Assembly: GCA_020631475.1 (NCBI GenBank)
Contig: JAHDHE010000003.1
Location: forward strand, 1-64,000
DNA length: 64,000 nt
Reading direction: 5' to 3'
Source of the DNA: Tenacibaculum sp.
GTDB taxonomy: Bacteria > Bacteroidota > Bacteroidia > Flavobacteriales > Flavobacteriaceae
Translations under genes and position numbers: made by a program
Notes under the pieces: model-generated
Seen by the model: the letters and a program-made list of their open reading frames with translations, nothing else
What the model was told of the DNA's origin: nothing
Database searches by the model: none
Part shown: piece after piece, positions 11,880 to 31,492 of the stretch
Layout of the letters: each line of letters starts with the position of its first letter
Numbering within the stretch: position 1 is the first letter of the stretch

Positions 11880-14800
11880 GGAACAAATAGCACCTTATAA
11901 ACCAATACATAAAGTTAGAATTGTAACTGCTGCATCTTTATTTGATGGACACGATGCTGCCATTAATATTATGCGTAGAATTATTCAATCTACAGGTGTT
12001 GAAGTTATTCACTTAGGTCATGATAGAAGTGTTGAAGAAGTAGTTAATTGTGCTATTCAAGAAGATGCCAATGCCATTGCAATGACATCTTATCAAGGAG
12101 GACATACCGAGTATTTTAAGTACATGTATGATTTATTGAAAGAAAGAGGAGCTTCTCATATCAAAATTTTTGGTGGCGGAGGTGGTGTAATTCTTCCTGA
12201 AGAAATTAAAGAATTAATGGATTACGGAATTACTCGTATCTATTCTCCTGATGATGGTCGTGAATTGGGTTTACAAGGAATGATTAACGATTTGGTAAAA
12301 ACTTCAGATTTTGCAATCGGCGATGTATTAAACGGAGAAATAAATAATTTAGCTGATAAAGAAATAGGTAGCATTGCACGTATTATTTCTTCTGCTGAAA
12401 ACTTCCCAGAAGTAGCTAAAGAAACTTTAGACGCTATTCATGAAAAAAATAAAAACTCAAAAACCCCTGTTTTAGGAATCACAGGAACGGGTGGAGCTGG
12501 AAAATCGAGTTTAGTAGATGAGTTAGTTCGTCGATTTTTAATTGATTTTCCGAATAAAACTATCGGATTAATTTCTGTAGATCCTTCAAAACGTAAAACT
12601 GGTGGTGCATTATTGGGTGATCGAATTCGTATGAATGCTATTAATAACGAACGTGTTTATATGCGTTCTTTGGCAACACGTCAATCTAATTTAGCTTTAT
12701 CAAAATATGTAAATGAAGCTGTTGAAGTTTTAAAAGCAGCTGAATTCGATTTAATCATTTTAGAAACTTCTGGTATTGGACAATCTGATACAGAAATCAT
12801 AGAACATTCTGATACTTCTTTATATGTAATGACTCCAGAATTTGGGGCAGCAACACAATTAGAAAAAATCGACATGTTGGATTTTGCTGATTTGGTTGCC
12901 ATCAATAAATTTGACAAACGTGGAGCTTTAGATGCAATTCGCGATGTGAAAAAACAATACATGCGTAACAACAATCTTTGGGATGTTCATATGGATGATA
13001 TGCCTGTTTTTGGTACGATTGCTTCACAATTTAACGATCCTGGAATGAATACGTTATACAAACGTATTATGGATAAGTTGGTTGAAAAAACTGACGCAGA
13101 TTTAAAATCGAACATGGAAATTACTAAAGAAATGTCTGAAAAGATATTTGTAATTCCACCAAGTAGAGTTCGTTATTTATCAGAAATATCAGAAAGCAAT
13201 AGAGCTTACGATAAAAAAGTTGATGATCAAGTTATTGTTGCTCAAAAATTATATGGAATTCATCAAACAATATTATCTTTAATAGATGTCACTTCGAGCG
13301 CAGTCGAGAAGTCTTTTATTTCTAAAAACGGATTAGAAAATGATGAGATCCTGAAACAAGTTCAGAATGACGAACAAGAGTTTGTCAAGCTTTTAATCGC
13401 TCAATTTGATAAAGTAAAACTAAATCTTGACAACCATAACTGGGAAGTTATTTTGAACTGGAAAGAGAAGGTTGAAAAATATAAAAATCCTATTTACACG
13501 TTTAAAGTACGTGATAAAGAAATAAAAATAGCCACACATACTGAGTCGTTATCACATACTCAAATTCCGAAGGTATCTTTACCAAAATACCAAGCTTGGG
13601 GAGATTTATTACGTTGGAGCTTACAAGAAAATGTACCTGGAGAATTCCCATACGCATCAGGATTGTATCCTTTTAAAAGAACTGGTGAAGATCCAACAAG
13701 AATGTTTGCTGGTGAAGGTGGACCAGAACGTACAAACCGTAGATTCCATTATGTAAGTCTTGGGATGCCTGCTAAAAGATTATCAACTGCTTTTGATTCG
13801 GTAACCCTATATGGTAATGACCCAGGAGTTAGACCAGATATTTACGGTAAAATTGGTAATGCAGGAGTTTCTATTTGTTGTTTAGATGATGCTAAAAAAT
13901 TATATTCTGGCTTCGATTTAAGTCACGCAATGACTTCGGTTTCTATGACTATTAATGGTCCTGCACCAATGTTGTTAGGTTTCTTTATGAATGCAGCAAT
14001 CGATCAGAATTGTGAGAAATACATCAAAGAAAATAAGTTAGAAAAACAAGTTGAAGCGAAATTCAAAGAAATTTACGATTCTAAAGGTTTAGACAGACCT
14101 GTTTACCAAGGAGATTTACCTGAAGGAAATAATGGTTTAGGATTGATGCTTTTAGGTTTAACTGGTGATATGGTTTTACCTCCGGATGTTTATGCTGAAA
14201 TTAAAAAAACAACGTTAGCACAAGTTCGTGGTACTGTACAAGCTGATATTTTAAAAGAAGATCAAGCACAGAACACTTGTATATTCTCAACTGAGTTTGC
14301 ACTGCGTTTAATGGGTGATGTACAAGAATATTTTATTGAAAAACAAGTCCGTAATTTTTATTCAGTTTCTATTTCTGGATATCATATTGCAGAAGCTGGA
14401 GCAAATCCAATTACGCAATTAGCATTAACATTATCAAACGGATTTACTTATGTTGAATACTACTTATCTCGTGGTATGGACATTAATAAATTCGGTCCAA
14501 ATTTATCGTTCTTTTTCTCAAACGGAATTGACCCAGAATATTCTGTGATTGGTCGTGTTGCTCGTAAAATTTGGGCAAAAGCTTTAAAACATAAATACGG
14601 AGCTAATCCAAGAGCACAAATGTTAAAGTATCATATTCAAACTTCAGGTCGTTCTTTACACGCTCAAGAAATCGATTTTAACGATATTAGAACAACCCTA
14701 CAAGCATTGTATGCAATTTACGACAACTGTAACTCGTTACACACCAATGCGTATGATGAAGCCATTACAACTCCAACTGAAGAATCTGTACGTAGAGCAA

Positions 14801-22110: not shown

Positions 22111-22881
22111 TTAACAATTCTTTACACTCTTAATAAATCTATCAATACCTTCTACTCCATTCTTATCTAGATTCTTAATAAACGCTGATCCGATAATTGT
22201 TCCGTTTGCATATTTACAAGCTGTAGTAAATGTTTTATTGTCTGAAATACCAAAACCAACAATTAAATTACTTTGTAAATTCATTGCTTTTATACGTTCA
22301 AAATAAGCAATTTGTTGTTCAGAAATTTCACCTTTTGCTCCCGTAATACTTGCAGAAGCAACTACATAAATAAAGGCTTTGGTATATGAATCTATTTTAC
22401 GAATTCTTTCTTCGGATGTGTGAGGAGTGATTAAAAACACATTTGTAATTCCATAACTTTCAAATAATGCTTTGTAATGATTTTCAAATTCAATCATTGG
22501 TAAATCTGGAATAATAACAGTGTCGATTCCACATTCTTTCACTTTCTTGCAAAATTCGTGCTCACCATATTTTAACAACTGATTCAAATACCCCATTAAT
22601 ACTAACGGAGTTTTATTTGAATTCTTAATTGATACTAATTGCTCAAAAATAATATCGAGGTTAATTCCGTTTTCTAAAGCTTTCTGACTACTATCTTGTA
22701 TCGTTGGTCCATCAGCTAAAGGATCAGAATATGGTAAACCTACTTCAATAAAATCTACTCCGCTTTTTTCTAATTCAGCAATTACTTTTGTTGTATCATT
22801 TAATTCAGGAAAACCAGAAGTAAAATAGATTGATAGTACATTTTTATCTTTCTGCTGAAATATATTTTTAATTGAATTCAT
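22111..22881 (-). CDS. trpA: Tryptophan synthase alpha subunit
   Basis: FIEVGLPYSDPLADGPTIQ signature; operon context. Confidence 0.95.
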   Translation of the reverse strand: MNSIKNIFQQKDKNVLSIYFTSGFPELNDTTKVIAELEKSGVDFIEVGLPYSDPLADGPTIQDSSQKALENGINLDIIFEQLVSIKNSNKTPLVLMGYLNQLLKYGEHEFCKKVKECGIDTVIIPDLPMIEFENHYKALFESYGITNVFLITPHTSEERIRKIDSYTKAFIYVVASASITGAKGEISEQQIAYFERIKAMNLQSNLIVGFGISDNKTFTTACKYANGTIIGSAFIKNLDKNGVEGIDRFIKSVKNC

Positions 22882-22895
22882 TTCTTTATTAATTG

Positions 22896-22956
22896 GTCAT
22901 TGCGAGGAACGAAGCAATCTCTAAATACAGATTCCTTCACTTTGTTCGGAATGACG
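22896..22956. repeat. Palindromic repeat in the trpB-trpA junction
   Basis: GTCATTGCGAGGAACGAAGCAATCT...AGATTCCTTCACTTTGTTCGGAATGACG. Confidence 0.8.
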
Positions 22957-22957
22957 T

Positions 22958-24139
22958 TTATTTTAAATGATTGATATACGTTTCTAAATCTTTATCTCCT
23001 CTACCCGATAAATTAATTACCACAACTTGATCTTTTTTCAAATCCATTTTTGGTAAAACTGCTAAGGCATGTGCACTTTCTAACGCAGGAATAATTCCTT
23101 CAATCTTTGTTAATTCATAAGCAGCTTCTAAAGCTTCTTTATCAGTTGCATTCATAAACGTTGCACGTTTTGTTTCGTGCAAATATGCGTGTAACGGACC
23201 AACTCCTGGATAATCTAAACCTGCAGAAATTGAATAAGGTTCAACAATTTGTCCGTATTCATCTTGCATTAAAATAGTTTTACTTCCATGAATCACACCT
23301 ACTTCACCTAACTGAGAAGTTGCCGCACTTTCGCCGGAATTAACACCTAAACCAGCAGCTTCAACAGCTATTAATTCAACATCTTTATCATCTAAATAAT
23401 GATAAAAAGCTCCTGCTGCGTTACTTCCTCCACCAACACAAGCAACAATCGTATCTGGATTTTCTTTTCCTGTTTGCGTTTTTAATTGAATTTTCATTTC
23501 TTCTGAAATCACTGCTTGTAAACGCGCTACCATATCTGGATACGGGTGTGGACCAACAACAGAACCAATTAAATAATAAGTTTCGGGATGCTGAATCCAA
23601 TAACGAATTGCTTCGTTTGTAGCGTCTTTTAATGTTTTACTTCCGCTTGTAGCAGGAACTACTTTTGCTCCTAACATTTTCATACGAGCAACATTTGGAG
23701 CTTGACGCTTAATATCGGTTTCTCCCATAAAAACAATACATTCTAAATCCATCAACGCACAAACAGTTGCAGTAGCAACTCCGTGTTGACCTGCACCAGT
23801 TTCAGCAATAATTTTAGTTTTACCTAAATGTTTTGCAACTAAAATCTGACCAATTGTATTATTTACTTTATGAGCTCCTGTATGATTTAAATCTTCACGT
23901 TTTAAATAAATGGTTGCTCCGTATTTTTCTGATAATCTTTTTGCCAAATACAACGGACTTGGACGACCAACATAATGTTGCAACAAATCTTTATACTCTT
24001 TCTGAAATGCTTCTGAAGCAAGTATATCTAAATAATTATCTTCTAATTCTTTTACGTTTGGGTATAATAATTCAGGAATAAATGCGCCACCGAATTGCCC
24101 GTAATACCCTTCTTTAGTTGGTTGAAATTCTGATTTCAT
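22958..24139 (-). CDS. trpB: Tryptophan synthase beta subunit
   Basis: [18 protein letters not shown]-lysine motif, [20 protein letters not shown]. Confidence 0.96.
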
Positions 24140-24152
24140 ATGCTATGGTATT

Positions 24153-24216
24153 CTGTCATCCCTATTAGTAAACCAATTCTTACAAAGATATTATTTCACT
24201 TCGTTCGCAATGACAG
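24153..24216. repeat. Palindromic repeat in the trpF-trpB junction (unit 1)
   Basis: CTGTCAT ... TTCACTTCGTTCGCAATGACAG, inverted termini. Confidence 0.65.
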
Positions 24217-24233
24217 GTTTTTATATTTATTTG

Positions 24234-24294
24234 CGTCATTCCGAACTTGTTTCGGAATCTCATTATGAGAAGCTGAAACAAGTTCAGCTTGACG
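24234..24294. repeat. Palindromic repeat in the trpF-trpB junction (unit 2)
   Basis: CGTCATTCCGAACTTGTTTCGGAATCTCATTATGAGAAGCTGAAACAAGTTCAGCTTGACG; inverted termini and inner hairpins. Confidence 0.8.
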
Positions 24295-24301
24295 ATATTT
24301 A

Positions 24302-24961
24302 CTATAGTTTTAATTCTTTTTTAAATTGTTTTAACTTTTCTACCGATTTTAATCCTGCTTCAATCTCAAACTTACTATTTACGTCTAACGCATAAATTGG
24401 TAAATCAGATTTCTGTAATTCTTTAATTGCTGTTATCTTATCTAATCCAATACCTCCACTTAAAAAGAATGGTTTTGTGGAATTATATTTTTTTAGAATC
24501 GACCAATCAAATGTTACTCCGTTCCCTCCTCTTTCTTTTCCTTTAGTATCAAATAAAAAGTAATCTACTAAAGGTTCGTATTGTTTTAAAACTTCGAAAT
24601 TAAAATCATCTTCAACCCCAAAAACCTTAACAATTTCTGGTATTTTATATTTTGACCTTTGATGCTTTTCTGCAATACTTTCTTTAAATATTTCTTTTAA
24701 TCTTTGTAAATATTCTGGTGATTCATCTCCGTGTAATTGTATCATTTTTAAACCATACTCTTCAACTAACGAAACTACAATTTCTGGAATTTCATTTACA
24801 AAAACTCCAGCCTTCTTTATTTCTTTTGGAAGCTCAGGAATAATTCCCTCAAAATTTCTTTTTGATTTCTCATAGAAAACAAACCCCAAGTAATCAGGTT
24901 GCAATGCTGCAACTTGTTGAATATTCTCTATGTATTTCATTCCACAAACTTTCAGTTTCAT
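24302..24961 (-). CDS. trpF: Phosphoribosylanthranilate isomerase
   Basis: MKLKVCGMKYIENIQQVAALQPDYLGFVFYEKSKR...; start at internal Met because the upstream 21 codons derive from the adjacent repeat. Confidence 0.92.
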   Translation of the reverse strand: MKLKVCGMKYIENIQQVAALQPDYLGFVFYEKSKRNFEGIIPELPKEIKKAGVFVNEIPEIVVSLVEEYGLKMIQLHGDESPEYLQRLKEIFKESIAEKHQRSKYKIPEIVKVFGVEDDFNFEVLKQYEPLVDYFLFDTKGKERGGNGVTFDWSILKKYNSTKPFFLSGGIGLDKITAIKELQKSDLPIYALDVNSKFEIEAGLKSVEKLKQFKKELKL

Positions 24962-24978
24962 CTTTAATTCTTTTTTTG

Positions 24979-25040
24979 TTATTGCGAGAGAAACGAAGCA
25001 ATCTTTATGAAGAGATTCCTTCACTACGTTCGGAATGACG
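24979..25040. repeat. Palindromic repeat in the trpC-trpF junction
   Basis: GTTATTGCGAGAGAAACGAAGCAATCT...AGATTCCTTCACTACGTTCGGAATGACG, same class as 22896-22956. Confidence 0.8.
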
Positions 25041-25041
25041 T

Positions 25042-25830
25042 TTATCTTATTTGATCAATAAATTCTTTACAAGCTTGTCCTGGATTCTCTGTTTTCATGA
25101 AATTCTCACCTATTAAAAATCCTTGAAATCCGTGTTCTTTTAATCCTGTAATAATTCTTGGGTCTGAAATTCCACTTTCTGAAACTTTAAGTGTCGAATC
25201 TGGAATTTGACTTGCTAACTTCATCGAATGCTCTAAATCAACTTCAAAAGTTTTTAAGTTTCGATTATTAATTCCGATGATCTTATTATCTAAATCGTTA
25301 ATCTTATCTAAGTCTTCTTTAGTATGTACTTCGTACAAAACCTCTAAACCTAAATCGTTAGCTAGTTGACCGTAATTTTTTAATTCCTGCGCTGTTAAAC
25401 ACGCTGCGATTAATAAAACAACATCTGCTCCAATTGCTTTTGCTTCAACAATCTGAAATCCGTCAACAATAAAATCTTTTCTTAAAATTGGTTTTTGCTG
25501 ATTTACAGTTCTCGCTTCTAATAAATCTGCCATACTACCTCCAAAAAAAGAAGTATCTGTTAAAATAGATTGTGCAGCAACATTTGCATCTAAATAACCT
25601 TCAGTTACTTCAAGAATTGTAGCTTTATCGTTAATAATTCCTTTTGATGGAGATTGACGTTTAAATTCTGCTATAATTCCTGTTGATCCAACTTGTAATA
25701 ACGATTTTTTTAACGAAAAAGCTGCGTTTTTAAAGTTAGGGCTTTCAACTAATTTCTTAACAGGAACCTCAGCTTTAATCTTTGCTATCTCTGTTTTTTT
25801 AAATGCGATTATTTTATCTAAAATTGTCAT
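25042..25830 (-). CDS. trpC: Indole-3-glycerol-phosphate synthase
   Basis: IIAEFKRQSPSKG, RKDFIVDGFQIVEA, NNRNLKTFEVD, SESGI motifs. Confidence 0.95.
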   Translation of the reverse strand: MTILDKIIAFKKTEIAKIKAEVPVKKLVESPNFKNAAFSLKKSLLQVGSTGIIAEFKRQSPSKGIINDKATILEVTEGYLDANVAAQSILTDTSFFGGSMADLLEARTVNQQKPILRKDFIVDGFQIVEAKAIGADVVLLIAACLTAQELKNYGQLANDLGLEVLYEVHTKEDLDKINDLDNKIIGINNRNLKTFEVDLEHSMKLASQIPDSTLKVSESGISDPRIITGLKEHGFQGFLIGENFMKTENPGQACKEFIDQIR

Positions 25831-25905
25831 ATAATTAATTATGAATTTTAAATTATGAATTACAATTTATTTTTAAATCGATTCATAATTAATAACTCTA
25901 CTTTA
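25831..25905. repeat. AT-rich AATTATGAATT-type repeats, downstream flank of the four-helix-bundle gene
   Basis: TAATTATGAATTTTAAATTATGAATTAC...GATTCATAATTAATAACTC...TTATGAATT. Confidence 0.6.
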
Positions 25906-26262
25906 TGAATTAGTATTTCTGATTGTTTTTTGGATACTTCCAATAATTTTTAATATTTCTTCAATATCTTCTATCAATGATTTTGATTCTTTATCGGATA
26001 AAAAATCGGTATCTTTTAATAAACGAATCCAATAATGAGACTCTCTTGCTTCTTTATAAGCTATAGTTAATTTGGCAAAAAAATCTTTTCGACTCTGACC
26101 ACCAATAGCCTCTTCAACATTTGCTCCTATAGAAGTTCCTGAACGTAATAATTGTTTACTTAATACAAACTCTTTCTTTTCAGAAGATAAATGCTTGTAT
26201 AATTTTACCACTCTAACGGCAAAATCATAGCTTTTCATTTGAATTATATTATCTTTTTTCAT
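25903..26262 (-). CDS. Four-helix-bundle (S23 / 23S rRNA IVS-type) protein inserted in the trp operon
   Basis: SYDFAVRVVKLYKHL..LSKQLLRSGTSIGANVEEAIGGQSRKDFFAKLTIAYKEARESHYWIRLL is the canonical pattern of this family. Confidence 0.88.
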   Translation of the reverse strand: MKKDNIIQMKSYDFAVRVVKLYKHLSSEKKEFVLSKQLLRSGTSIGANVEEAIGGQSRKDFFAKLTIAYKEARESHYWIRLLKDTDFLSDKESKSLIEDIEEILKIIGSIQKTIRNTNS

Positions 26263-26269
26263 TAGTTCA

Positions 26270-26307
26270 AATTTATAATTCGTAATTATTAATTCGTAAT
26301 TAACTTC
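26270..26307. repeat. AT-rich AATTCGTAATTA repeats, upstream flank of the four-helix-bundle gene
   Basis: TTATAATTCGTAATTATTAATTCGTAATTAAC; the trpD stop codon lies within it. Confidence 0.6.
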
Positions 26308-27278
26308 GTTAAGCATCTCTTTGCTCTCAATTCAAATAAAGATTCTTTAGCTTCTGCAAAAGTATCATGAAAAGATTTAGTATCATCAACTATTTTTAAT
26401 GCGAATGCAGCATTTGTTAGCACTACATTGTTTTGTGCATCTGTACCGTTTCCTTCAATTATATTTTTAAATATTTTAGCAGCTTCAGTAACAGAGTTTC
26501 CTCCAAAAATATCTGTTTGTTGTAATCTTTTTTGCCCTAAATCTTCTGGATTAATTAATTGCTCACCATTTTTAGTAAACAGTTTAAATCCGCTTGTTAA
26601 AGAAATCTCATCATAACCATCAAGCGCATGTACAATTCCGTAATTACTATTTTCTTCTTGTAAAATATAGTTATACAAACGTGCAACTTCTAAATTAAAA
26701 GTTCCTAATAATTGATTTTTTGGTGAACTCGGATTTACCAAAGGACCTAACATATTAAAAAATGTTTTTAATGCTAACTCCTTTCGTGTAGAGCTTACCG
26801 CTTTCATTGCAGGATGAAATTTTGGCGCATGCAAAAAACAAATATTGGCTTGTTCTAAATGAGATTTTAAAGTAGCCTCATCATTGGTAAATTGATAACC
26901 AAAGCTCTCTAACATATCTGAAGAACCTGATTTTGAAGACACAGAATAATTACCATGTTTCGCAACTTTTTGTCCAGTTCCTGCAACTATAAAAGAGGTT
27001 AATGTTGAAATGTTAAACGTGTCTTTTCCGTCTCCACCAGTACCTACGATATCAATGGTATTATAATCTGAAAAATCTACTTTTATAGCTAACTCAATTA
27101 ATGCACTTCTAAAACCAGAAAGTTCATCAACCGTAATTGGTCGCATCATAAAAACCGTCATAAAAGATGCTAAATGTGCTTCGTTAAATTTTCCTGAAGC
27201 AATATCTATTAAGATTTGTTTTGCTTCAGATTTAGTTAATCTTTTATGTTGATATAAATCGTTTAAAATTTGTTTCAT
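26289..27278 (-). CDS. trpD: Anthranilate phosphoribosyltransferase
   Basis: DIVGTGGDGKDTFNISTL, KHGNYSVSSKSGSSDMLE; start at internal MKQILNDLY. Confidence 0.95.
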   Translation of the reverse strand: MKQILNDLYQHKRLTKSEAKQILIDIASGKFNEAHLASFMTVFMMRPITVDELSGFRSALIELAIKVDFSDYNTIDIVGTGGDGKDTFNISTLTSFIVAGTGQKVAKHGNYSVSSKSGSSDMLESFGYQFTNDEATLKSHLEQANICFLHAPKFHPAMKAVSSTRKELALKTFFNMLGPLVNPSSPKNQLLGTFNLEVARLYNYILQEENSNYGIVHALDGYDEISLTSGFKLFTKNGEQLINPEDLGQKRLQQTDIFGGNSVTEAAKIFKNIIEGNGTDAQNNVVLTNAAFALKIVDDTKSFHDTFAEAKESLFELRAKRCLTKLITN

Positions 27279-27280
27279 CT

Positions 27281-27316
27281 TAAAGGCTTTAAGCATTAAG
27301 CTTGAGGCTTACAGCT
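27281..27316. repeat. AAGC-rich repeat at the trpG-trpD junction
   Basis: TAAAGGCTTTAAGCATTAAGCTTGAGGCTTACAGCT; overlaps the trpG 3' end. Confidence 0.5.
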
Positions 27317-27880
27317 ATTTATAAAATTTCTAACAATCTGTTCTCCTACTTCTGTTAATATTGATTCAGGATGGAATTGTACCGCTGATATATTAAATAC
27401 ATTATGTTCTATTGCTTGTATCGCCCCATCTTCATCTTTTGCTGTAATCGAAATTTCTGATGGGAAATTTTCATTAGAAGCTATCCAAGAATGATAACGA
27501 GCTGCTTCAAATTTCTCTGGAATACCTTTAAAAATTACTGCGTCTTTTTTAACAACTTTCATTTCTGTGGCTACTCCATGAAAAACTTCTCCCATGTTTA
27601 TAATGTTTCCGCCAAAAACCTCTGTAATTGCTTGTAATCCTAAACAAACTCCGAAAATTGGTTTGTTTCCTGCATAGGCTCTAATTACATCTTTTAAAAT
27701 ACCGGCTTCATCAGGAATTCCTGGTCCTGGCGATAAAATAATGGCATCATAACGTTCAATTTCTTCAACAGAAATCTCATCGTTTCTATACACATCTGGT
27801 AACTGTCCCGTAATATCTTCTACCATGTGTACCAAATTGTAGGTAAACGAGTCGTAGTTATCTAATATTAATATGTTCAT
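27296..27880 (-). CDS. trpG: Anthranilate synthase component II (glutamine amidotransferase)
   Basis: LDNYDSFTYNLVH, SPGPGIPDEAG, GVCLGLQAI, VQFHPESILT. Confidence 0.95.
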   Translation of the reverse strand: MNILILDNYDSFTYNLVHMVEDITGQLPDVYRNDEISVEEIERYDAIILSPGPGIPDEAGILKDVIRAYAGNKPIFGVCLGLQAITEVFGGNIINMGEVFHGVATEMKVVKKDAVIFKGIPEKFEAARYHSWIASNENFPSEISITAKDEDGAIQAIEHNVFNISAVQFHPESILTEVGEQIVRNFINSCKPQA

Positions 27881-27949: not shown

Positions 27950-29341
27950 TTATATTTTTTCTGCTAAAAGCAACGCTTTTTTTAACGCTGCTAATTTATT
28001 ATTTACTTCTTGTAATTCTTTTTCTTCATCAGAATGAATTACGATTCCTGCTCCTGCTTGATAATATAACACATTGCTTTTACTTACAAAAGAACGAATT
28101 GCAATGGCTAAATTTACCGAACCGTCTAAACCGATAATTCCAACTGCGCCACCGTAAAATCCACGGGATTGATTTTCGTAAGTATCAATTAATTGCATTG
28201 CTTTATATTTTGGAGCTCCACTTAATGTTCCTGCCGGAAAAGTGTCTCCAACAATATTAATCGAATTTCCTTTTATTTTTCCTTGTACGGTAGAAACCAA
28301 ATGAATTACATGACTAAAATACTGAACCTCTTTAAACACCTCAACTTTTACATTCTCTGCATGTTTACTTAAGTCGTTTCTTGCTAAATCAACTAACATT
28401 ACATGTTCTGCGGTTTCCTTTTTATCTTCTGATAATTTTTTACCCAACTTAATATCTTCAGCCATATCACCCGTTCTTCTAAATGTTCCTGCAATCGGAT
28501 TGATAATTGCTTTTCCTGCATTTATTTTAATTTGTGCTTCAGGTGAAGATCCCATTAATTTAAAAGAACCGTAATCGAAATAAAATAAATATGGTGACGG
28601 GTTTATTGATCTCAATGCTCTATATACATTAAACTCATCTCCTTTAAATTCTTGCTGAAATTGACGTGATAAAACTAGCTGAAAAACATCACCTCGTTTA
28701 CAATGTGCTTTTGCTCTTACAACGTATTCTTTAAAATCTTTATTCGTACAATTAGACGTTTCTTCTCCTTTAATTTCAAATTTCTGAGTATTAAAAGCTT
28801 GTGAATTAATAATTGTTTCAATCTCTGAAATTCTCGATTCATTTCCTAATTCAACATTTTCAATTAAAGTCATCTCATCGTTAAAATGATTTATCGCAAT
28901 TATAAAACGATAAAAACTGTATTGCATTACAGGTATTTTAGACGGAGCTTCTTTAACATTCAGTTTAATATTTTCAAAATACTGAACACTATCATAAGTA
29001 CTATAACCATACAATCCGTTAAAAGATTTTAGTTCTGAAGGACAATCTAATTCTATTGATTTTGAAAAATTATCAAACAACTCATAAAAGTTTTTATCAA
29101 TTGAATGACTCTTTATAAGTTTTCCTTTTTTAGAAACTTCAAAAGCATCATTATCTACCTTCATTGTTACCATTGGCTCTATACAGATAAAAGAAAAACT
29201 TTCCTCTTTACTGTGGTAATCTGAACTTTCTAATAATAATGTATTAGCATATTTATCTCTAAACCTTAAATACAATCCTACTGGAGTAATTGTATCTGAG
29301 ATTCTTTTTTTACTAATTGTTTTAAATGCTATTTTATTCAT
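27950..29341 (-). CDS. trpE: Anthranilate synthase component I
   Basis: GDVFQLVLSRQF, INPIAGTFRRTGD, FPAGTLSGAPKYKAMQLID; start at internal MNKIAFK because the upstream codons are repeat-derived. Confidence 0.95.
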   Translation of the reverse strand: MNKIAFKTISKKRISDTITPVGLYLRFRDKYANTLLLESSDYHSKEESFSFICIEPMVTMKVDNDAFEVSKKGKLIKSHSIDKNFYELFDNFSKSIELDCPSELKSFNGLYGYSTYDSVQYFENIKLNVKEAPSKIPVMQYSFYRFIIAINHFNDEMTLIENVELGNESRISEIETIINSQAFNTQKFEIKGEETSNCTNKDFKEYVVRAKAHCKRGDVFQLVLSRQFQQEFKGDEFNVYRALRSINPSPYLFYFDYGSFKLMGSSPEAQIKINAGKAIINPIAGTFRRTGDMAEDIKLGKKLSEDKKETAEHVMLVDLARNDLSKHAENVKVEVFKEVQYFSHVIHLVSTVQGKIKGNSINIVGDTFPAGTLSGAPKYKAMQLIDTYENQSRGFYGGAVGIIGLDGSVNLAIAIRSFVSKSNVLYYQAGAGIVIHSDEEKELQEVNNKLAALKKALLLAEKI

Positions 29342-29347
29342 AATTGA

Positions 29348-29423
29348 TGTCAGTTCGAGCGCAGTCGAGAACATTTTAATTTCTCTTATTTTTAATGACC
29401 TCTCGACTGCGCTCGAGTTGACA
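29348..29423. repeat. Inverted pair of GTCGAG-type palindromic repeats directly upstream of trpE
   Basis: TGTCAGTTCGAGCGCAGTCGAGA (29348-29370) and TCTCGACTGCGCTCGAGTTGACA (29401-29423), reverse complements with 2 mismatches. Confidence 0.85.
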
Positions 29424-29442
29424 TTTTTCTATTAAAAACAAA

Positions 29443-29470
29443 AAAAGGCTTATCGTGAGATAAGCCTTTT
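29443..29470 (-). terminator. Attenuator terminator of the trp leader
   Basis: AAAAGGCTTATC-TCAC-GATAAGCCTTTT followed by TTTGTTTTT on the minus strand. Confidence 0.8.
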
Positions 29471-29503
29471 CTTTATATTATATACATATAGGATTCTTCT
29501 CAC

Positions 29504-29551
29504 TTAAATATTAAGAGAGTTCCACCACCATATGTTGTTTTGTTTCATCAT
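29504..29551 (-). CDS. trpL: trp leader peptide MMKQNNIWWWNSLNI (15 aa; not in ORF track)
   Basis: Three consecutive TGG codons, placed between a consensus promoter and a terminator upstream of trpE. Confidence 0.85.
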   Translation of the reverse strand: MMKQNNIWWWNSLNI

Positions 29552-29558
29552 TGAGTTA

Positions 29559-29589
29559 CAAATGTATAAAGTGTTTTTGATTTTGCAAA
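29559..29589 (-). promoter_or_regulatory. trp operon promoter (Bacteroidetes -33/-7 type)
   Basis: On the minus strand: TTTG-N19-TACATTTG, matching the TTTG/TAnnTTTG consensus. Confidence 0.75.
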
Positions 29590-29827: not shown

Positions 29828-31492
29828 ATGTGTGGAATTGTATGTGCGTTTGATTTAAAACAATCTTCAGAAAGTTTAAGACCTCAAGTATTAGAAATGG
29901 CTAAAAAGATTCGTCATCGCGGTCCAGACTGGAGCGGAATTTACAGCGACGATAAAGTAATAATGGCTCACGAACGTTTGGCTATTGTAGATCCTGCTTC
30001 AGGGCAACAACCTTTATTTAGTGCTGATAAAAAATTAGTTTTAGCTGCTAATGGAGAAATATACAATCACAGAGAATTAAAAAAACAATTTAAATTCGAT
30101 TATGAATTTCAAACTGAATCAGATTGTGAAGTAATTTTAGCACTACACAAAGAAAAAGGAGTTGATTTTCTTGATGATATGAATGGAATGTTTGGTTTTG
30201 CTTTATATGACGTTGAAAAAGACGAATATATTATAGCAAGAGATCATATGGGAATCATCCCTTTATATATCGGTTGGGATCAAAACGGAACATTTTATGT
30301 TGCCTCTGAATTAAAAGCTTTAGAAGGTGTTTGTGCTAAAATCGAATTATTTCCTCCTGGACATTATATGTCAAGTAAAGACGGAAAATTTGTACAATGG
30401 TATAAAAGAGATTGGAGTGAATATGATGCTGTAAAAGAAAACGAAACAAGCATACAAGAGGTTAAAGAAGCTTTAGAAGCTGCAGTTCATAGACAATTGA
30501 TGAGTGATGTTCCTTACGGAGTTTTATTGTCTGGTGGATTAGATTCATCAATCACCTCAGCCATTGCTAAAAAATATTCTCAAATGAGAGTTGAATCTGA
30601 CGACAAATCAGAAGCTTGGTATCCACAATTACACTCTTTTTCTGTTGGTCTAGATGGTTCTCCTGATTTAGCTGCTGCACAAAAAGTAGCTGATCATATT
30701 GGTACCATTCATCATGAAATAAAGTTCACCATCCAAGAAGGTTTAGATGCTATTAAAGATGTTATTTACAACATCGAAACGTATGATATTACAACGATTC
30801 GTTCTTCTACTCCAATGTATTTAATGGCTCGTGTTATAAAATCAATGGGAATTAAAATGGTATTATCTGGCGAAGGAGCTGATGAAATTTTTGGAGGATA
30901 TTTATATTTTCACAAAGCACCAAACGCGCAAGAATTCCACGAAGAAACTGTGCGTAAATTAGACAAATTACATATGTATGATTGTTTACGCGCAAACAAA
31001 AGTTTAATGGCTTGGGGAATTGAAGGTCGTGTTCCTTTTTTAGATAAAGAATTTATGGATGTTGCAATGCGCATCAACCCACAAGATAAAATGATTAACG
31101 GAGAACGCATGGAAAAATGGGTAATTCGTAAAGCATTTGAAGATATGCTACCGCAAGAAGTTGCTTGGAGACAAAAAGAACAATTTTCTGATGGTGTTGG
31201 TTATAGCTGGATTGACACTTTAAAAGAAGTTGTTGAAAAAGAAGTTACAGATGAGCAATTAGCAAACGCTAAATTCCGTTTTCCAATAAACACACCTTTA
31301 AACAAAGAAGAATTTTATTACCGTTCTATTTTCGAAGAACACTTTCCAAGTGATACCGCAGCATTAAGTGTACCACAAGAAGCAAGTGTTGCCTGTAGTA
31401 CAGCCACTGCTTTAGAATGGGATGAAGCTTTTAAAAACATGAACGAACCTTCTGGAAGAGCAATTATCAATGTACATGATGATGCTTATTAG
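29828..31492 (+). CDS. asnB: Asparagine synthase B (glutamine-hydrolysing)
   Basis: MCGIVCAFD Ntn-glutaminase start; LLSGGLDSSITSAIA PPi loop. Confidence 0.95.
   Translation: MCGIVCAFDLKQSSESLRPQVLEMAKKIRHRGPDWSGIYSDDKVIMAHERLAIVDPASGQQPLFSADKKLVLAANGEIYNHRELKKQFKFDYEFQTESDCEVILALHKEKGVDFLDDMNGMFGFALYDVEKDEYIIARDHMGIIPLYIGWDQNGTFYVASELKALEGVCAKIELFPPGHYMSSKDGKFVQWYKRDWSEYDAVKENETSIQEVKEALEAAVHRQLMSDVPYGVLLSGGLDSSITSAIAKKYSQMRVESDDKSEAWYPQLHSFSVGLDGSPDLAAAQKVADHIGTIHHEIKFTIQEGLDAIKDVIYNIETYDITTIRSSTPMYLMARVIKSMGIKMVLSGEGADEIFGGYLYFHKAPNAQEFHEETVRKLDKLHMYDCLRANKSLMAWGIEGRVPFLDKEFMDVAMRINPQDKMINGERMEKWVIRKAFEDMLPQEVAWRQKEQFSDGVGYSWIDTLKEVVEKEVTDEQLANAKFRFPINTPLNKEEFYYRSIFEEHFPSDTAALSVPQEASVACSTATALEWDEAFKNMNEPSGRAIINVHDDAY

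Follow-up and report, generated by a model that had tools for sequence, protein, structure and literature searches.

A candidate ribosome-mediated attenuator of the Bacteroid-trp family, with a leader gene predicted to lie almost at the 5′ end of its message, upstream of a Flavobacteriaceae trp operon

In the trp leader of Escherichia coli (trpL) tandem Trp codons, three alternative pairings (1:2, 2:3 and 3:4) and an intrinsic terminator are found with trpE downstream, and the locus described here shares all of these features. It differs from the E. coli leader (Trp_leader) in having a Bacteroidota sigma-A promoter, no Shine-Dalgarno sequence and a predicted near-leaderless start; Shine-Dalgarno pairing is not used in the phylum Bacteroidota. 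The Bacteroid-trp family (RF01692), described in 2010, is located ahead of trp genes in Bacteroidetes and, like the present element, has a leader with Trp codons and a 1:2 hairpin (Weinberg et al. 2010, PMC2864571). The Rfam model of this family differs in that it ends within the 5′ terminator arm and represents the 1:2 helix only, without the 2:3 pairing, the terminator or the promoter spacing; it also misses many genuine members. In main-text passages of two papers on Flavobacterium psychrophilum, a Bacteroid-trp element is noted upstream of trp (PMC6414381) and attenuation by leader peptides is inferred for amino-acid operons (PMC9723704, PMC6414381); these passages describe neither a 2:3 pairing nor a start point for the trp leader. 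In Sinorhizobium meliloti the trp attenuator RNA (trpL, rnTrpL) begins at the AUG of the leader ORF (PMC7298713), an alphaproteobacterial system that is alike in arrangement. In Streptomyces lividans trpL1 has a WWW leader peptide, a leaderless transcript and a terminator before trpE (PMC8079986), although this actinobacterial trpE is monocistronic and the sequence is different. Since leaderless trp leaders are known in these two organisms, the arrangement reported here is new only for Bacteroidota, within the literature searched.

Across the whole 64-kb stretch of DNA that was analysed (the window), RF01692 was the sole Rfam family with a match above its gathering score; the match extended over the full model length and the margin was small (49.7 bits versus 49). 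There was no match to the E. coli-type Trp_leader family at gathering score within the window, and matches to BTnc231, Phe_leader and microRNA-family models over the terminator and a nearby repeat were discarded because they were far under their gathering scores. The initial annotation had not recognised this known family. In addition to the score, the element is positioned upstream of trp biosynthesis genes in a member of the Bacteroidota, and the RF01692 matches in genomes of the same taxonomic family adjoin trpE. It is a member of a known attenuator family, a kind already known from the 2010 description, and is ordinary in kind and mildly novel in detail.

From 29589 to 29440 the minus strand reads TTTG-N19-TACATTTG, the spacer TAACTCA, an ORF encoding MMKQNNIWWWNSLNI and its stop, segments able to form three pairings that exclude one another, and an intrinsic terminator; the trp operon comes next. 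The features of the element are as follows:

29586-29589, minus strand: −33 element TTTG, read in the sequence, exactly 19 nt (29585-29567) from the −7 box
29559-29566, minus strand: −7 box TACATTTG, Bacteroidota sigma-A type TAnnTTTG, read in the sequence and in relatives
29552-29558, minus strand: 7-nt spacer TAACTCA, predicted transcription start at about 29553-29554, predicted 5′ UTR of 2-3 nt
29504-29551, minus strand: trp leader peptide ORF of 15 codons, ATG at 29551, WWW at 29530-29522, stop TAA at 29506-29504
29511-29519, minus strand: segment 1, CTCTCTTAA, pairs with segment 2
29498-29507, minus strand: segment 2, TTAAGTGAGA, contains TTAAGTGAG (29507-29499) and GTGAGA (29503-29498), with the invariant GUG core
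29484-29535, minus strand: whole 1:2 hairpin, including the outer helix that spans the Trp codons; this is the helix in the Rfam model
29455-29460, minus strand: core of segment 3, TCTCAC, 6 bp with GUGAGA (−8.8 kcal/mol)
29440-29466, minus strand: intrinsic terminator (3:4), GGCTTATC (29466-29459), loop TCAC, GATAAGCC (29454-29447) and seven T
29459-29571, minus strand: Rfam RF01692 Bacteroid-trp match

The TCTCAC core comprises the entire terminator tetraloop and the two 5′-arm bases that precede it. The sequences, the 19-nt spacing, the ORF and the terminator given in the initial annotation all proved correct to the base on the minus strand, as did the complementarity of GTGAGA and TCTCAC. 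The segments proposed for the 1:2 pairing do pair, but the helix is longer than had been claimed; an outer part (29535-29525 with about 29494-29484) extends over the Trp codons, and the complete helix was calculated at −13.5 kcal/mol.

RF01692 was detected in 211 of 300 genomes of the same family at E ≤ 0.001 (187 above the gathering score), compared with 278 of 300 for TrpE; in a class-wide sample it was present in 15 of 290 genomes, four other families included. The shortfall relative to TrpE within the family is largely under-detection by Rfam; upstream of trpE, all 20 inspected genomes that were RF01692-negative and TrpE-positive had a WW or WWW leader behind a −7 box or close to one, the script having failed to place the −7 box with the ATG chosen in one of them (L207). 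When 30 loci of the genus were picked by TrpE alone, all had a leader upstream of trpE (27 WWW, 3 GWW). Nearly every trpE-bearing genome of the family may thus carry such an attenuator. Only two of the three Trp codons were present in L180, L183 and L190 (GWW, within the genus) and in L205, L209, L212 and L213 (WWQ, WWC or WWH, elsewhere). The trp leader ORFs of L068 and L090 seem to begin with TTG and GTG, respectively, rather than ATG; the GTG of L090 is 5 nt from the −7 box.

The geometry of the leader was conserved in 95 family leaders, which were drawn from RF01692 matches and so weighted towards well-scoring ones. Seven or eight residues preceded WWW, segment 2 had its GUG core 27-30 nt past the first TGG, and the stop codon fell within −13 to +6 nt of the GUG, with a UGA stop inside the GUGA core in 54 of the 95. 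The peptides were 13-20 aa in length; their N-terminal residues varied and their C-terminal parts were read in differing frames and lengths, while the RNA segments were kept. Since peptide ends and frames vary while distances stay, selection acts on the position of the ribosome over the RNA segments. In the window and in the 95 relatives alike, a ribosome stalled at the Trp codons would cover segment 1 and one that had finished the peptide would cover segment 2. A short leader ORF with three consecutive Trp codons was present in 100/100 family leaders scored for promoter and UTR, a set that had been selected for WWW.

Because segments 1 and 2 shift register between clades, pairing was assessed by constrained folding of each sequence separately. 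With nothing covered, GUGA paired upstream (1:2) in 90/95 relatives; when the region through segment 1 was covered, its partner was the arm or loop of the terminator (2:3) in 95/95. Both pairings were possible in 90/95 sequences, compared with 8.8 ± 2.7 (maximum 15 in 20 shuffles) when the flanking bases were permuted and GUGA and the terminator were kept, a comparison that does not remove shared ancestry among the loci. The 2:3 duplex averaged −12.0 kcal/mol versus −6.3 ± 0.2 kcal/mol with segment 2 shuffled. The leader and pairing pattern of the window is far beyond chance, with 1:2, 2:3 and 3:4 pairings that are mutually exclusive.

The initial annotation had made its reading depend on the Trp codons and stems being conserved in relatives, and both were. 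The covariation that it had proposed across the stems was evident in the terminator, where the stem was paired in 100% of cells and 11 sequences, the window's clade among them, carried a double change from G-C to A-U. For 2:3 the signal was marginal: own partners averaged −12.0 and partners swapped between species −11.8 kcal/mol, with 346 of 5000 permutations as good, a difference that is slight because the core is nearly invariant. The base that follows GUGA tracked the one that precedes UCAC: A occurred with T in 29/38 and G with T in 5/52. RNAalifold analysis of an alignment of 90 leaders recovered the terminator alone, and no 1:2 or 2:3 pairing, owing to the shifting register of these segments from clade to clade. 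In one member of the genus (L008, 1568-1671) the terminator loop is inverted, with GTGA for TCAC and the stem unchanged, and the 2:3 core pairing is therefore lost; its close relative L039 differs.

The component elements, how they are spaced, how well they are conserved and which pairings they can form are all read in the DNA, and from these we infer stalling and regulation by tryptophan in the following form. RNA polymerase would start 2-3 nt ahead of the leader ATG, placing the leader ORF at the extreme 5′ end, and the first ribosome could load once that end emerges. When charged tRNA-Trp is scarce, the ribosome would stall on WWW and cover segment 1, and the freed segment 2 (GUGAGA) would pair with UCUCAC, in the arm and loop of the terminator, ahead of synthesis of the 3′ arm, so that the polymerase would continue into trpE. 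When tryptophan is plentiful, a ribosome at the stop codon would cover segment 2, the terminator would form and transcription would end; in the absence of translation, the 1:2 hairpin would sequester segment 2 and the terminator would form too. Folding of the leader in the window gave the corresponding structures. When a ribosome occupied WWW and the polymerase had just passed the terminator loop, GUGAGA:UCUCAC formed (−7.9 kcal/mol); when the ribosome was at the stop codon and segment 2 covered, only the terminator formed (−10.3 kcal/mol); without a ribosome, the 1:2 hairpin with its outer helix coexisted with the terminator. Once the 3′ arm had been made, the equilibrium structure was the terminator, also when the ribosome occupied WWW. 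Since the completed terminator is more stable than 2:3, antitermination would have to be kinetic, that is, a matter of timing. Timing-dependent antitermination is the standard attenuation model.

The conserved Trp codons, geometry and mutually exclusive pairings support the proposal of the initial annotation, and we regard the element as a ribosome-mediated transcription attenuator of the trp operon with a probability of about 0.94. Intrinsic terminators and short ORFs often arise by chance in AT-rich DNA, which would suit a terminator that is fixed and unregulated and a short ORF that is incidental; the WW or WWW leader ahead of trpE in 30/30 genus loci and 20/20 Rfam-negative loci, together with the conserved geometry and mutually exclusive pairing, makes that explanation very improbable. 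A leader that senses free tryptophan through its nascent peptide, as TnaC does, would also place a short Trp-containing peptide ahead of a regulated operon. It is equally hard to credit, since conservation is seen in the RNA segments and not in the peptide residues that flank WWW, and since consecutive Trp codons, the 1:2/2:3 alternatives and an operon that is biosynthetic, not degradative, fit the sensing of tRNA.

A less improbable, although still unlikely, alternative accepts attenuation and places the transcription start further upstream, so that the ATG-adjacent TACATTTG would not be the promoter used. Most mapped flavobacterial mRNAs do have leaders, 87% being over 10 nt in F. johnsoniae (PMC6847099), and in F. 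psychrophilum the median leader is 24 nt and 5.5% of mRNAs are leaderless (PMC9723704). About half of the trp leaders of the family also have a predicted UTR of at least 10 nt. A TAnnTTTG-type box was present in 30/30 genus loci and in 100/100 scored family leaders (98 perfect). Against an upstream start, the gap from box to ATG was 7 nt in 25/30 genus loci and 6-9 nt in all 30, which corresponds to a predicted 5′ UTR of about 3 nt, the 25 spacers of 7 nt comprised 21 different sequences, and a TTG-type element was located 19-20 nt upstream of the box in 28/30. Furthermore, A at −3 was found in 2/22 loci with a predicted UTR of 0-2 nt versus 30/44 with 10-20 nt, as if the two classes initiated translation differently; genes with leaders in F. 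johnsoniae prefer A at −3 (PMC6847099), and the shortest-UTR class lacked an A-rich, Kozak-like context. Mapped promoters have TAnnTTTG at −12 to −5 in F. psychrophilum (PMC9723704) and a box-to-start spacing of 4-5 nt in F. johnsoniae (PMC6847099); application of these sigma-A rules to the box at 29559-29566 puts the start at about 29553-29554. The near-leaderless start of the initial annotation is thereby supported as a prediction, by conserved spacing with variable spacers, and the leader ORF probably begins no more than about three nucleotides into the message, the 5′ UTR predicted from promoter spacing being 2-3 nt. The spacings of ORFs in the window ranged from 4 to 67 nt, a background of 11 values only and too few alone.

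Messages of this type are a small class: about 4-6% of mapped Bacteroidota mRNAs are leaderless or have 5′ UTRs under 10 nt (PMC7366714, PMC9723704), with 3.7% of 5′ UTRs under 10 nt in Bacteroides thetaiotaomicron (PMC7366714). Predicted UTRs of the 100 family leaders were bimodal, 41 being at most 4 nt and 44 being 10-20 nt, and on the TrpE tree the near-leaderless and longer-UTR states required approximately nine changes, at least five of them on well-supported branches. On balance we lean towards the view that, in Flavobacteriaceae-type bacteria, selection places the leader peptides of trp attenuators, and in this genus also of ilv attenuators, at the 5′ terminus of the mRNA. Repeated gain or loss, sharing with ilv and the different start context suggest that leaderless initiation may serve to synchronise the first ribosome with RNA polymerase. 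The predicted almost leaderless leader mRNA makes the short 5′ end a testable regulatory detail and offers a clear test of a role for leaderless initiation in Bacteroidota attenuation; the full anatomy of promoter, leader, 2:3 antiterminator and terminator is now available for a family of attenuators that is only partly represented in Rfam.

Other amino-acid operons of the genus also have leader peptides. His-run peptides preceded hisG in 28/29 loci (L114-L142), with −7 boxes mostly 16-19 nt before the ATG, and I/L/V-rich peptides preceded ilvD in 25/28 loci (L143-L170), with boxes mostly 4-10 nt before it. The median predicted UTR in the genus was 4 nt for ilv and 14 nt for his leaders, both with a looser box pattern.

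Downstream (3′) of the leader is a complete trp operon, trpEGDCFBA, all on the same strand; after trpE it occupies 22111-27880:

27950-29341, minus strand: trpE, first gene controlled, PF04715 and PF00425, probable and conserved start ATG at 29341, homologues align from residue 1
27296-27880, minus strand: trpG
about 26289-27278, minus strand: trpD
25903-26265, minus strand: 23S_rRNA_IVP gene, PF05635 (E 3e-29)
25042-25830, minus strand: trpC
about 24302-24961, minus strand: trpF
22958-24139, minus strand: trpB
22111-22881, minus strand: trpA

The trpE start at 29374 given by the ORF tool adjoins a repeat and was judged to be a false upstream start, the homologues aligning from the first residue of the ATG at 29341. 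The 23S_rRNA_IVP gene, which encodes a four-helix bundle, has trpD and trpC as its neighbours in the operon. Between the attenuator terminator and trpE is a GC-rich inverted repeat of 22 nt (CTCGACTGCGCTCGA..TGACA), at 29348-29369 on the minus strand and 29402-29423 on the plus strand; a further copy is present at 13287-13308, and similar pieces are found at other sites of the genome and in relatives. Transcribed divergently from the trp promoter region is asnB (29828-31492, plus strand), which encodes an asparagine synthase. The TrpE proteins of this genus and of about a dozen others share only approximately 55% identity with TrpE from the remainder of the family, from which they are separated by a long tree branch, and both kinds of TrpE are preceded by the same type of leader.
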